Shown here: piece after piece, positions 4,544-62,493 of the stretch
How positions within the stretch are numbered: the stretch's first letter is position 1
Layout of the letters: each line of letters begins with the position of its first letter
Assembly (NCBI RefSeq): GCF_014695575.1
Contig: NZ_JACJOO010000068.1
Coordinates: 62,001 to 126,000, forward strand
Length of the DNA: 64,000 nucleotides
Source of the DNA: Leptolyngbya sp. FACHB-8
Lineage (GTDB): Bacteria; Cyanobacteriota; Cyanobacteriia; Elainellales; Elainellaceae
Direction of reading: 5' to 3'
The notes under the pieces: model-generated
Seen by the model: only the letters and a program-made list of their open reading frames with translations
The model's database searches: none
What the model was told of the DNA's origin: nothing
Translations under genes and position numbers: made by a program

Positions 4544-4658
4544 TATCTAACAGCGCTTTGCGCTTGAATCAGCCACGGTTGTTTTTGTGAGAGCCGCGCT
4601 CCATGAGGCTCTCACAAAAACAACCGGATTTTAAGCGATTGAAAAGCGCTGTTAGATA
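4544..4658. repeat. Family C palindromic element, copy 1
   Basis: Outer arms TATCTAACAGCGCTTT (4544-4559) and its exact complement (4643-4658) enclose an inner hairpin, GGTTGTTTTTGTGAGAGCC against its complement. About 45 bp of its left half are nearly identical to the reverse complement of the right half of the element at 40086-40190, so it is a dispersed repeat and not a one-off terminator. Confidence 0.85.
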
Positions 4659-5069: not shown

Positions 5070-5094
5070 GGTAGTTTCTTGAGAGGATGTCGAC

Positions 5095-5183
5095 CAGCCA
5101 TTCTTAATTATGAGCTTTAAAGCCTGAAGACTGCTCGCTTGGAACGAGCAGTCTTCAGGCTGGCTTCCAAAATGAGAATTGCT
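5095..5183. mobile_element. Family A hairpin element, 89-bp single-hairpin copy
   Basis: The ends are CAGCCATTCTTAATTATGAG on the left and the complement of CAGCAATTCTCATTTT on the right, matching the family A ends. Only one hairpin is present, a 16-bp stem starting GCCTGAAGACTGCTCG, where full copies have two. Host repeats GGATGTCGAC (5085-5094) and GGATATCGAC (5184-5193) flank it, matching in 9 of 10 positions, as expected for a target-site duplication. It lies about 160 bp upstream of pheT, possibly in its leader. Confidence 0.8.
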
Positions 5184-5344
5184 GGATATCGACATGCGAG
5201 TGAGATTTGACCTCAACAAAACGATACAATCTTAACGGGTAGGCAAGTACAGGTGCGGTTTTTGGCGCTTTGCACAGGTTCCCCACCCCCTTAACCGGGA
5301 GGCCGCCGGAGGCGATTCTCTCAAAATTTCTGGAACGGTTAGAC

Positions 5345-9423: not shown

Positions 9424-9548
9424 GACCTCCATCGGGGATAAGTTCAAGTGCCCGTTTTAGAGTTGTACTCTGCGCACGCCAAAATGAGCTTTTTGGGAGG
9501 GCGCACAAAGCGCGTCCCTCAAAAAAGCCCTTAACCCGAACTCAAGTT
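9424..9548. repeat. Family B double-hairpin element, degraded copy
   Basis: The left end (ACCTCCATCGGGGATAAG) and right end (CCCTTAACCCGAACTCAAGTT) match the ends of the better copy at 46927-47050 with several changes. The inner arms, including GAGCTTTTTTGGGAGG-like and complementary segments, are partly decayed. It lies just upstream of mazG. Confidence 0.6.
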
Positions 9549-9579
9549 AAATTAATACTGTTCTACAACGATCGCTCCT

Positions 9580-15296: not shown

Positions 15297-15364
15297 TAGT
15301 CCTACATTATGAGCAACATGGAGCATCGTTCGTAATCCAGTGCAGGTTAGCTTAGGTGAATTGT

Positions 15365-15495
15365 CAGCAATTCTCAGTATGGAATTAGGCTCGAAAACCG
15401 CTTGCCTTCGGCAAGCGGTTTTCGGGCTTCAAAGCCAAGATTGCGCGCCCGACGGGCGCGCAATCTTGGCTTTGAAGGTCATAACGAGAACTGCT
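15365..15495. mobile_element. Family A double-hairpin element, 131 bp, copy 1
   Basis: Inverted ends CAGCAATTCTCAGTATG and CAGCAGTTCTCGTTATG (complement of the right end) enclose two hairpins. The first has an 18-bp stem with one mismatch starting GCTCGAAAACCGCTTGCC and loop TTC. The second has a perfect 24-bp stem starting CTTCAAAGCCAAGATTGCGC and loop GAC. The flanking host sequence GGTGAATTGT is exactly repeated at 15355-15364 and 15496-15505, as expected for a 10-bp target-site duplication. No ORF is inside. Confidence 0.92.
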
Positions 15496-15637
15496 GGTGA
15501 ATTGTGGGTGGTCTTGTGGGAGCGCAAAGCATCCCTATAAACCCATCCCTTATGTTCCTTGTAGTCGAGGGCCGCTATAGCGTCGTCTTACCGATTACTA
15601 TGGAGCCATTCCCCATGCCAATCTGGTGGAGGCGACA

Positions 15638-22967: not shown

Positions 22968-23062
22968 TATAGCGATGTGCAAGTGCGTTAAGTACAGCAA
23001 CGGTGGTGTGGGGCACTTCGTGCCCCACACCACCGTACTTAATCAACGTGCACAGCGCTATA
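22968..23062. mobile_element. Family D element, IS630/mariner-like MITE candidate, 95 bp
   Basis: The ends match in 23 of 28 positions as inverted repeats: TATAGCGATGTGCAAGTGCG on the left and TATAGCGCTGTGCACGTTGA as the complement of the right. The inside is a perfect 15-bp stem, GGTGGTGTGGGGCAC with loop TTC. The TA dinucleotide at each edge fits the TA target duplication of the IS630-Tc1/mariner group. It holds no ORF. Confidence 0.75.
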
Positions 23063-23086
23063 GTCGTTCACTGAGCCATCTCAGTT

Positions 23087-23197
23087 CGAGATAAGCTGAA
23101 GTGCCTATTTGCGTGCGCTTCGCGTACACAAAATCGACGTTTTTGAGTGCCGCAGGGTGCGTGGCACTCAAAAATGTCCCGAACTCGAACTCAGGTT
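23087..23197. repeat. Family B double-hairpin element, copy 2
   Basis: The left end CATCTCAGTTCGAGATAAGC and the right end GAACTCGAACTCAGGTT are inverted matches to the family B ends. Two hairpins lie inside: one around GCGTGCGCTTCGCGT, partly decayed, and one TTTTTGAGTGCC/GGCACTCAAAAA. It lies next to the family D element and together they occupy most of the gap upstream of the TPR gene. Confidence 0.75.
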
Positions 23198-23432
23198 GAG
23201 TAGTGTTCTAGAGGTGTATGGCTTTTAACAAGCCAATTGCGGTGTGGAATTGAAGTGGGCGAACCGTATCTCATCCCACGGCCACCATGGGTCGGTGAAC
23301 GATGAGTGCTACATGTTGCCTACGCCCGTCCCCGGGTTGTCTATCTAAAATTTCTCTAACGACATGGGGAAAATCATGCTGCATACTATGGGGAACGTTC
23401 TCCTGTTGGTTTCGAGATAGATCAGAGCGGCC

Positions 23433-25796: not shown

Positions 25797-26120
25797 CCTC
25801 ACACCTCGTTGAAAAGAGGTTAAACGTTCCGATCGCCTTATCACCGTTAAAGTGTGAGGATGCATTGCATCCTCACACTTCGTTGAAAATCGCTATGAGG
25901 TTAAATGTGGCGATCACCGCATCATTGTTGAGGTGAATGGGATGCAATGCATCCAGCAATTCTCATTATGAGCTTCAAAGCCGAGAGTTCGCGCCCGACG
26001 GGCGCGAACTCTCGGCTTTGAAGCCTGAAAATAGCCCGCCTTCGGCGGGCTATTTTCAGGCTTCAATTCAAAATGAGAATTGCTGCAATACATCCCATCC
26101 ACCTCGTTGAAAACCGCTAT
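25797..26120. repeat. Tandem array of hairpin units interrupted by a mobile element
   Basis: Three units share TCGTTGAAAA (25806, 25880 and 26104) preceded by CCTCACAC- or CATCCACC-type sequence. Spacing is 74 bp between the first two, and 83 bp between the last two once the 131-bp element and 10-bp repeat are removed. Within the units, arms such as GTGTGAGGATGC pair with GCATCCTCACAC around ATT (about 25853-25879). The array fills the gap between the dienelactone hydrolase gene and ddl. Confidence 0.75.
25954..26084. mobile_element. Family A double-hairpin element, 131 bp, copy 2
   Basis: The ends CAGCAATTCTCATTATGAG and CAGCAATTCTCATTTTGAA (complement) enclose a perfect 24-bp stem starting CTTCAAAGCCGAGAGTTCGC (loop GAC) and an 18-bp stem starting GCCTGAAAATAGCCCGCC (loop TTC). 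The flanks GCAATGCATC (25944-25953) and GCAATACATC (26085-26094) match at 9 of 10. Removing the element and one flank rejoins GGGATGC-AAT-GCATCCC, an older hairpin, so it entered that hairpin's loop. Confidence 0.92.
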
Positions 26121-28164: not shown

Positions 28165-28277
28165 AAGCTGCCCCCGAAACACCACTGGAGCGGGCGTGGC
28201 GCAAAGCGCCTCTCGAAAAAGCCCATTTTGTCGTGCGCTCTGCGCACGACAAAATGGGCTTTTGGGCTTATCTCTAA
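28165..28277. repeat. Family B element, degraded copy, in a convergent gap
   Basis: A strong inner hairpin, AAGCCCATTTTGTCGTGCGC with its complement (loop TCT), matches one hairpin of the 46927-47050 copy. The right end GCTTATCTCTAATTGAGGTT matches the family end, while the left end is no longer clear. It lies between the ends of the 27408 gene and the CHAT gene. Confidence 0.65.
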
Positions 28278-28286
28278 TTGAGGTTA

Positions 28287-30887: not shown

Positions 30888-31452
30888 GGTTTCGGTATTC
30901 TCCTCGTTGGACAAATTCAACGCTTAGTTTGCTCTGTAGCGCATGAAGGGGGCAGAGCCGCGTGAAGTCTGAGAACAGGGGGTGCCCTCAGGTTTCACCG
31001 GGAGGCCGACATGATCCGGAAAATCTACTCATGCCAAAAAAATAAGACGGCGCTCCTACTCACTAGGATAACGTCCTCACCAGGATAGATCCCACCATCA
31101 CTACATCTCAGGACAGGGGGCGAAATATATTAGTTCCCGTAGAGAAATAAAGATCGTCAAACCACTTCACTAGAATCTTTCTGCAACCCTTCTGCCAAAG
31201 GTTAATCTTCTGTACTCGCAAGGTACGAAAAGTTAACGTTTCAACATCTTTCAAACCGCTGATCCGCAAGGTAAATGGGACGGCAGCCCAGATTCTTCTG
31301 GGATTTTTCGCGTTAATCTGCCGAGAGTCTTCCGGATAGGAAGGGTTTCCCTAGAAAACTGAAGTGGTAGATGCACCCTGATTCTAATCTCCCGATCCCT
31401 CTTTTGAGGGGAGGGAGGTTTTCTTTTTTAAAGAGATTTCATGTAGGTAAAC
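30888..31452 (+). ncRNA. Gene-free region ending in an orphan terminator, candidate small RNA
   Basis: No ORF stands out in this stretch. At 31389-31430 there is a strong plus-strand terminator: CTCCC/GGGAG and CCCTC/GAGGG nested stems, then GTTTTCTTTTTT. No plus-strand gene lies upstream, since both neighbours are on the minus strand. A second weak hairpin with T run (CCCAGA/TCTGGG, then ATTTTT) lies near 31290-31311. A small RNA ending at about 31430 would explain this; the 5' end and identity are unknown. Confidence 0.35.
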
Positions 31453-39782: not shown

Positions 39783-39867
39783 GCGAGAAATATAATTCGC
39801 CATTTCAAAATCAGATCGACATAATTTGGGAAGGATGTTCATCCACCAGGCTCTAACGTTGCTATAA

Positions 39868-39998
39868 CAGCAATTCTCAGTATGGAATTAGGCCCGAAAA
39901 CCGCTTGCCTTCGGCAAGCGGTTTTCGGGCTTCAAAGCCAAGATTGCGCGCCCCTCGGGCGCGCAATCTTGGCTTTGAAGCTCATAATGAGAACTGCT
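39868..39998. mobile_element. Family A double-hairpin element, 131 bp, copy 3
   Basis: Nearly identical to copy 1 and in the same orientation. The ends are CAGCAATTCTCAGTATG and the complement CAGCAGTTCTCATTATGAG. The first stem (18 bp, starting GCCCGAAAACCGCTTGCC) is perfect here, and the second 24-bp stem has loop CTC where copy 1 has GAC. The flanking host sequence GTTGCTATAA is repeated exactly at 39858-39867 and 39999-40008. Confidence 0.95.
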
Positions 39999-40085
39999 GT
40001 TGCTATAAGCAGCACCAACACCAGCACAGAATAATCATCTAGGCCAGGCATCCCCTAATGGAAAAGTATGAGCAGATTTCCTAAC

Positions 40086-40190
40086 TACAGCGCTTTCCAA
40101 ACGCTTAAAATTTGGTTGTTTTTGTGAGAGCCGCGCGGAGCACGGCTCTCACAAAAACAACCGTGGCTGATTCAAGCGCAAAGCGCTGTA
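40086..40190. repeat. Family C palindromic element, copy 2
   Basis: The reverse complement of the element at 4544-4658 over most of its length. Outer arms TACAGCGCTTT and complement enclose a hairpin of GGTTGTTTTTGTGAGAGCC and its complement. It lies just before the end of the hybrid kinase gene and may also serve as its terminator. Confidence 0.85.
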
Positions 40191-40203
40191 AGTGTAGGAA
40201 ACG

Positions 40204-46926: not shown

Positions 46927-47050
46927 AACCTCAGTTCGGGATAAGCTGAAGTGCTCATTTTGTCGTGCGCAAAGCGCACGACAAAATGAGCGTTTTCGAG
47001 TGCCGCACGACGCGCGCCACTCGAAAACGCCCTTAACCCGAACTCAGGTT
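46927..47050. repeat. Family B double-hairpin element, best copy
   Basis: The ends AACCTCAGTTCGGGATAAGC and the complement AACCTGAGTTCGGGTTAAGG match closely. The first hairpin is CTCATTTTGTCGTGCGC and complement with loop AAA; the second is GCGTTTTCGAGTG and complement with a 15-base loop. TAATGA occurs at both edges (46922-46927 and 47050-47055, sharing one base with the element), a possible short target duplication. Confidence 0.82.
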
Positions 47051-47055
47051 AATGA

Positions 47056-62264: not shown

Positions 62265-62342
62265 AGTGTGGGCGATCGCTTGTGAGTGGCTTTACGATTC
62301 TACTGCTTTGTTGAGGGCCGGTGGTTAGATGAGTAGCCTATT

Positions 62343-62483
62343 CAGCAATTCTCAGTATGGGCATCAAAGCCAAGAGTTCACGCCCTACGGGCGTGAACTC
62401 TTGGCTTTGATGCCCGAGAACCGCGCGCCATTGGCGCGCGGTTCTCGGGCCTGATTTCAAAATGAGAATTAATGAGAGTTGCT
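62343..62483. mobile_element. Family A double-hairpin element, 141-bp copy with a 10-bp internal duplication
   Basis: The left end is CAGCAATTCTCAGTATG and the right end is CAGCAACTCTCATT (complement). The stems start GCATCAAAGCCAAGAGTTCA (loop TAC) and GCCCGAGAACCGCGCGCC (loop ATT), both perfect. The 10 extra bases come from a tandem near-repeat AATGAGAATT-AATGAGAGTT just inside the right end. The flanks GTAGCCTATT (62333-62342) and GTAGCCTGCT (62484-62493) match at 8 of 10. Confidence 0.88.
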
Positions 62484-62493
62484 GTAGCCTGCT

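Follow-up and report, generated by a model that had tools for sequence, protein, structure and literature searches.

A high-copy MITE family with palindromic interiors in Leptolyngbya sp. FACHB-8 and the same-ended insertion sequence of its relatives

Results

Five elements with common ends in a 64-kb stretch

The window, by which we mean the whole stretch of 64,000 nucleotides analysed from Leptolyngbya sp. FACHB-8, carries the ends of one repeat family (family A) at five places, exactly those named in a preliminary description of this DNA. Delimited symmetrically from CAG to CTG, the elements are 90, 132, 132, 132 and 142 bp long. The copy at 15365 serves as the reference; positions are those of the window.

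5095-5184, + strand: MITE copy 1, 90 bp, one hairpin, diverged left end
5086-5094 and 5185-5193: target duplication of copy 1, GATGTCGAC/GATATCGAC, 8/9 match
15365-15496, + strand: MITE copy 2, the reference copy, 132 bp, two palindromes
15389-15427 and 15427-15477: palindromes of the reference copy, 39 and 51 bp
15356-15364, no strand: left 9-bp target duplication of copy 2, GTGAATTGT, 9/9
15497-15505, no strand: right 9-bp target duplication of copy 2, GTGAATTGT, 9/9
15365-15381, + strand: left terminal inverted repeat of copy 2, CAGCAATTCTCAGTATG
15480-15496, - strand: right terminal inverted repeat of copy 2, one mismatch to the 17-base pattern
25954-26085, - strand: MITE copy 3, 132 bp, interior in opposite orientation
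25945-25953 and 26086-26094: target duplication of copy 3, CAATGCATC/CAATACATC, 8/9
39868-39999, + strand: MITE copy 4, 132 bp, 96% identity to copy 2
39859-39867 and 40000-40008: target duplication of copy 4, TTGCTATAA on both sides, 9/9
62343-62484, - strand: MITE copy 5, 142 bp, with a 10-bp internal tandem repeat near the right end
62334-62342 and 62485-62493: target duplication of copy 5, TAGCCTATT/TAGCCTGCT, 7/9

The preliminary description had given lengths of 131, 141 and 89 bp, each copy bordered by a 10-bp direct repeat. Three equal copies, a longer one and a one-hairpin one are indeed present, and every copy has a duplication, but the lengths are 132, 142 and 90 bp and the duplication is 9 bp. 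The alternative that it had offered, 132 bp with a 9-bp duplication, is the right reading, because symmetric CAG...CTG ends give 9-bp duplications. The G said to begin all five repeats belongs, on the right-hand side, to the element itself as its last base; on the left it follows no rule, the base at -10 being G in 25, T in 20, C in 19 and A in 16 of 80 sampled elements with a duplication of at least 8/9. An Rfam search of the window returned three matches, none at an element. An Rfam match to NsiR1 (nitrogen stress-induced RNA 1) lies at 31365-31425 on the + strand (42.8 bits), another repeat (GGCTCTCACAAAAACAACCG...) forms an inverted pair at 4547-4652 and 40087-40192 (92% over 106 nt), and GCGATCGC sites number 95. 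These sites, the NsiR1 match and the presence of such elements in named cyanobacteria point to a cyanobacterial host.

Copy number and target duplications in the host genome

The ends of the family read CAGCARTTCTCANTWTG, and its elements are mostly 132 bp, run from CAG to CTG and are flanked by a 9-bp target duplication. With up to two mismatches the 17-bp end occurs at 341 sites in the 6.93-Mb genome, against three for a reversed control pattern, and the genome therefore holds about 170 elements. From 100 of the 341 end sites and from a set of 30 loci we obtained 108 raw end pairs. Those with over five end mismatches, 14 in all and among them the window copy at 5095, were left out, and the remaining 94 elements with two good ends form the sample. 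Six loci gave no end pair (L081, L082 and L087, truncated by contig ends; L161, L168 and L196). As delimited by the script, 78 of the 94 are 132 bp long, a figure that includes the mis-delimited copy at 62343.

The 9-bp duplication is perfect in 66 sampled elements and reaches 8/9 in 14 and 7/9 in six, so that 86 of the 94 score at least 7/9, where 1.27 would be expected from right flanks shuffled among elements. The preliminary description had proposed this genome-wide listing of ends and flanks, and had named copies without direct repeats as the sign that would speak against transposition: only eight fall below 7/9, and one of these is the 62343 copy, whose right end was set 10 bp early by the script and whose true value is 7/9. 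The middle of the duplicated 9-mers is mildly A+T-rich; beyond that, their sequences vary. The elements are mostly intergenic: among 29 whose neighbouring open reading frames were inspected (frames of at least 100 aa, not gene calls), 16 lie between tandem, six between divergent and three between convergent frames, three are spanned by a frame after excision and one lacks a frame on one side. Tandem pairs of elements, about one target 9-mer apart, occur at L170:93-365, L130:20-289 and L197:100-370; the second copy at L170 resembles a chimera of two subfamilies, joined within the second hairpin.

Paralogous empty sites

The flanks of 92 elements were joined with one copy of the duplication and compared with a retrieved portion of the same genome. 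The elements at L165 and L152 sit within a 124-bp hairpin repeat, of which the window holds an uninterrupted copy:

46927-47050 (to 47052 in the family listing), + strand: uninterrupted 124-bp hairpin repeat, paralogous empty site for the L165 and L152 copies

The element at L131 sits within a repeat resembling window positions 22968-23062. In all three cases the alignment crosses the junction, for L131 with a 1-base gap there; these empty sites are paralogous, not orthologous. An orthologous empty site of the 25954 copy was not seen in relatives, where its target is not visible because the matching genomes align to the downstream flank only, the upstream flank being too diverged. The hairpin repeat belongs to a second family (CTCAGTTCGGGATAAGCTGAAGTG..., about 124 bp), found in the window at 9427-9550, 23080-23199, 28206-28285 and 46927-47052 and in more copies in the genome; some repeats of this type are interrupted by inserted MITE copies.

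An insertion sequence with the same ends in relatives

The 17-bp end, with at most one mismatch, is present in 33 of the 60 genomes searched (host genome included) and absent from the sole congener among them. In G018, two facing ends 1420 bp apart enclose one open reading frame of 435 aa from the first listed start codon (446 aa from stop to stop), and G023 carries nine copies of this insertion sequence, all of 1420 bp, eight with a perfect 9-bp duplication and one without. The single full copies in G018, G015, G010 and G007 have no such duplication (1/9, 3/9, 2/9 and 0/9, respectively); CAG ends are found on all full copies in these five genomes. The transposase is matched in 24 of the 60 genomes, in many only by fragments.

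Eight partner proteins were compared with curated models. Pfam DDE_Tnp_1 matches five of them, two barely over the cut-off (23.5 and 24.1 against 23 bits), and DDE_Tnp_1_assoc matches six, with every score below the cut-off. The G023 protein scores 20.5 bits against the NCBIfam model IS701_3 (cut-off 170) and 20.4 bits against IS4_2 (cut-off 152); none of the NCBIfam insertion-sequence cut-offs is reached by the partner transposase, and the partner proteins have no NCBIfam match to the ISAs1 model NF033564. A search of solved structures gave five matches at chance level.

Relatives on plasmids are annotated as 'transposase', as 'hypothetical protein', not at all or, in Gloeothece verrucosa, as 'ISNCY family transposase' (WP_013335080.1, 47% identity to the G023 transposase). 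Both ends of the Gloeothece relative fit the 17-base pattern exactly, with no 9-bp duplication seen; the ends of the Calothrix and Anabaena plasmid relatives lie within one mismatch of it and are flanked by a 9-bp duplication. Such a duplication also borders a distant Saccharobesus relative, whose ends are CAGCAATTATTGG, and two copies in G043, whose ends read CAGCARTTT; no good end pair was found for a Methylomagnum relative. By the one annotation from Gloeothece, the partner would be a DDE insertion sequence of ISNCY type.

A remnant in the host genome

No transposase of this kind was found in the host genome by single-protein search or by profile at E 0.001, in agreement with its reported absence from the window. 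The profile search gave one weak match (E 0.137), pointing to a DNA remnant of the insertion sequence (G000:C93:10878-10930) in which 46 of 53 bp are identical to the transposase gene (E 2.2e-10 by DNA comparison). The partner or a close relative was therefore once present in the lineage and is now gone or lies in an assembly gap. A full transposase bounded by the family's ends, which the preliminary description had proposed to look for, thus exists in relatives; the host keeps only the remnant. In locus L198, a hairpin similar to the GGCTCTCACAAAAACAACCG repeat adjoins the remnant. A blastn search of the 131-bp stretch against plasmids found no relatives.

ISAs1 was considered as the partner and rejected, the curated model NF033564 having no match in the host genome, where there is no intact partner. 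The earlier guess of an IS4- or ISAs1-type transposase is thus only roughly right: the partner shows weak similarity to the IS4, ISAs1 and IS701 families through DDE_Tnp_1, DDE_Tnp_1_assoc, IS701_3 and IS4_2, but lies far below the curated cut-offs for IS4 and IS701.

Elements with the same ends across phyla

The exact two-end pattern with 82-112 bases between was found in at least 101 stretches of a prokaryote genome collection, of which 80 loci with 81 elements were examined; 57 of these elements have a perfect 9-bp duplication and 67 score at least 7/9. The record titles name nine phyla, some through a single element: Cyanobacteria, Verrucomicrobia, Kiritimatiellae, Chloroflexi, Acidobacteria, Proteobacteria, Thermodesulfobacteriota (with Desulfatirhabdium), Omnitrophota and Bacteroidetes (Marinifilum, whose element has no clear duplication, 3/9); because most records are MAGs, single phylum labels (e.g. 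Akkermansia) may be wrong. The interiors of these far elements vary by lineage and strong folding is not universal; hairpin-bearing cousins of the host element occur in three genomes (G012, G025 and G013).

Among the 31 genomes with such elements, 14 have a transposase match, several as fragments only, and 17 have none. Nine transposase loci were checked for ends: the four full-length ones all have paired ends, three of them with a 9-bp duplication, and the other five have no usable end pair. The insertion sequence of Pseudanabaena biceps has matching ends and a 9-bp duplication, and the ends of those in one Anaerolineae and one Proteobacteria MAG deviate from the pattern by 2 and 4, respectively, of the 17 bases of each end. 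No transposase was found beside the far elements at E 0.001 in the examined loci. In viral contigs, an exact-pattern search found no element, and none of 42 candidate stretches held a relative of the transposase.

Palindrome arms and loops

The interior of the reference copy consists of two abutting palindromes, with fold z-scores of -13.7 as DNA and -15.1 as RNA. Covariation was measured on 77 aligned copies (74 distinct) of the 78 elements of 132 bp, other lengths being left out: 98.0% of the stem cells are paired, against 88.5% after shuffling and 25-47% when the structure is slid by 1-3 columns. Changes on both sides are seen in 24 of 41 pairs, against 13.6 shuffled and 3 to 8 slid. When 70 elements of the three main subfamilies (132-mers only) are compared with their subfamily consensus, 48 two-sided stem departures are seen on 23 distinct pair changes, all 48 of them Watson-Crick, where 2.4 would be expected if the sides were independent (shared descent ignored). 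There are also 75 one-sided departures, so that the homogenisation of the arms would be incomplete. Hairpin A is bordered by AAAA/TTTT in many copies of the alignment. In two copies of the host genome (L129 and L139), the second hairpin is shorter yet palindromic, as if both arms had lost the same bases.

Each loop has 3 nt, and every one of the three subfamilies contains loops of either orientation, the two forms of the main pairs standing between 1:1 and about 2:1 (GTA 19 / TAC 15, AAA 14 / TTT 13, GAC 6 / GTC 6, TTC 12 / GAA 6). Sixteen pairs of elements match fully once the loops are set aside, and in 12 of them one or both loops are inverted between the two members; the pairs share elements and are not independent. 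By the counts, the orientation of one loop in an element appears not to depend on that of the other. Reversal of the loop tips also seems more frequent than change at other bases, in one draft assembly with orientation taken from the assembled contigs.

Discussion

By every sequence feature examined, the element is a MITE: it is short, present in many copies and devoid of a transposase gene, it has terminal inverted repeats and a target duplication of fixed length, and it has its ends in common with an autonomous element found in relatives. It is not a new class of element, but a MITE variant with new traits. The non-autonomous, MITE-like mobility proposed in the preliminary description from the window copies is upheld by the duplications throughout the genome, by the empty sites and by the same-ended autonomous insertion sequence of relatives. 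The ends, the duplications, the paralogous empty sites, the complete insertion sequence of relatives and the 53-bp remnant are all directly seen, and we hold it to be highly probable that they reflect a high-copy MITE family for which a same-ended 1.4-kb insertion sequence, lost or unassembled here, supplied the DDE transposase in trans, the palindromes of the MITE being kept up by template switching.

A transposase of the partner type probably moved the copies of the host, a trans-acting step proposed by analogy because no transposase was found in this genome. Also weighing against this account are the full insertion sequences that have no 9-bp duplication (the single ones of G018, G015, G010 and G007, one of nine in G023 and that of Gloeothece), the few sampled elements below 7/9, and the paralogous nature of the empty sites. 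It would act in trans, cutting at CAG/CTG with a 9-bp staggered cut of the target; this cut and stagger are evident from the anatomy of the insertion sequence in relatives and would apply by extension to the MITE. At replication, the new strand would fold back or switch to the other strand, copying one arm as the other; to judge from the pattern of changes, such copying would fix mismatches and may turn the 3-nt loop. Selection for the folded strand may contribute, but would not be needed. A bolder scheme, which we think distinctly improbable, would have the palindromes take part in the multiplication of the element: each round of transposition or tied replication would copy arm onto arm, re-setting the loop at random in almost every new copy and proofreading the stem, and the 17-bp ends would mark one insertion-sequence superfamily over many phyla, whose passengers have repeatedly gained palindromic interiors.

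The turning of the loops could instead be an artefact of assembly, which we consider unlikely, with some weight still due to it. An assembler with short k-mers picks the orientation of a loop at random, because the k-mers of a hairpin recur in its reverse complement, and mixed and independent orientations are thus expected from it as well. The assembly is a draft in 95 contigs, some of which break inside elements, and no clear inversion is apparent by eye in MAG elements with longer loops (uncounted, in part of the data). Four contigs, however, end 99-113 bp within elements, which may mean that the k-mer exceeded both palindromes (39 and 51 bp) in length, and the evidence for transposition would be unaffected by such an artefact.

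It is likewise doubtful that the hairpins are maintained because selection favours a structure in RNA or DNA, such as a portable two-way terminator or an mRNA-stabilising element, with the double changes as ordinary compensatory evolution. The very strong fold, the strong covariation and the AAAA/TTTT edges of hairpin A would suit this explanation; the inverted loops between otherwise identical copies are left unexplained by it, the flanking frames are not mainly convergent (3/29), and a terminator scan around the reference copy gave no site inside it. We consider it very unlikely that a host-encoded transposase from outside the partner family mobilises the elements: it is the partner insertion sequence of relatives to which the same ends and 9-bp duplication belong, and a remnant of it persists in the host, even though no transposase of its family was found there or in 17 of the 31 other element-bearing genomes. 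That the elements are immobile palindromic repeats of the REP or terminator type, as their mostly intergenic position, palindromic nature and high copy number might suggest, has next to no probability in view of the target duplications, the empty sites and the autonomous partner.

The closest known systems are of two kinds, mobile elements and palindrome correction. ISMae2-type elements of ISNCY have CAG ends and 9-bp duplications and are 1.4-2.4 kb long; the CAG ends and 9-bp duplication of the partner make the likeness to this group a lead. The literature passages naming ISMae2 give no ends. Nezha is a MITE of cyanobacteria. Passages on a 187-bp MITE of Microcystis describe ends common to an insertion sequence and a target duplication; that element is short, gene-free, intergenic and folded like the one studied here, but differs in its ISL3-like ends (GGCTCTTCG), its 8-bp duplication and its ISL3 partner (PMC11448079). 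In Anabaena sp. 90, the available account reports 147 MITEs with several inverted-repeat regions, called type II, for which a partner was not found; these are also short, gene-free, intergenic and folded, and, compared by description, may overlap with the present family (PMC3542288).

The behaviour of the arms and loops resembles quasipalindrome correction, in which arm homogenisation is accompanied by spacer inversion, as appears to be the case in the host element (PMC8604942, PMC8794818). Passages on yeast hairpins attribute both to template switching, including an inversion of GAA to TTC (PMC8604942), and loop inversion by template switching is described for the stems of bacterial rRNA (PMC8794818). 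In these passages the correction appears as events in genes, whereas the present case spans many copies of one mobile element. Among the papers listed by topic searches of a library with few subscription papers there was no description of the element, and those listed by searches for strings of its end were, judged by title, on unrelated subjects. The preliminary description knew of no described element of this structure; the structure is not isolated, since same-ended elements exist in records of many phyla and hairpin-bearing cousins in other genomes.

Two features look new: a palindromic interior whose loops appear to turn, and a single 17-bp end that reaches across many phyla. Since no NCBIfam cut-off is reached by the partner and DDE_Tnp_1 is at best grazed, annotation that leans on such models can miss both the insertion sequence and its passengers, for which the 17-bp ends are a ready probe in many phyla. 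Dozens of two-palindrome copies at independent sites constitute a natural record of template switching, from which the frequency of arm copying and of loop inversion relative to ordinary substitution can be read in a single genome.
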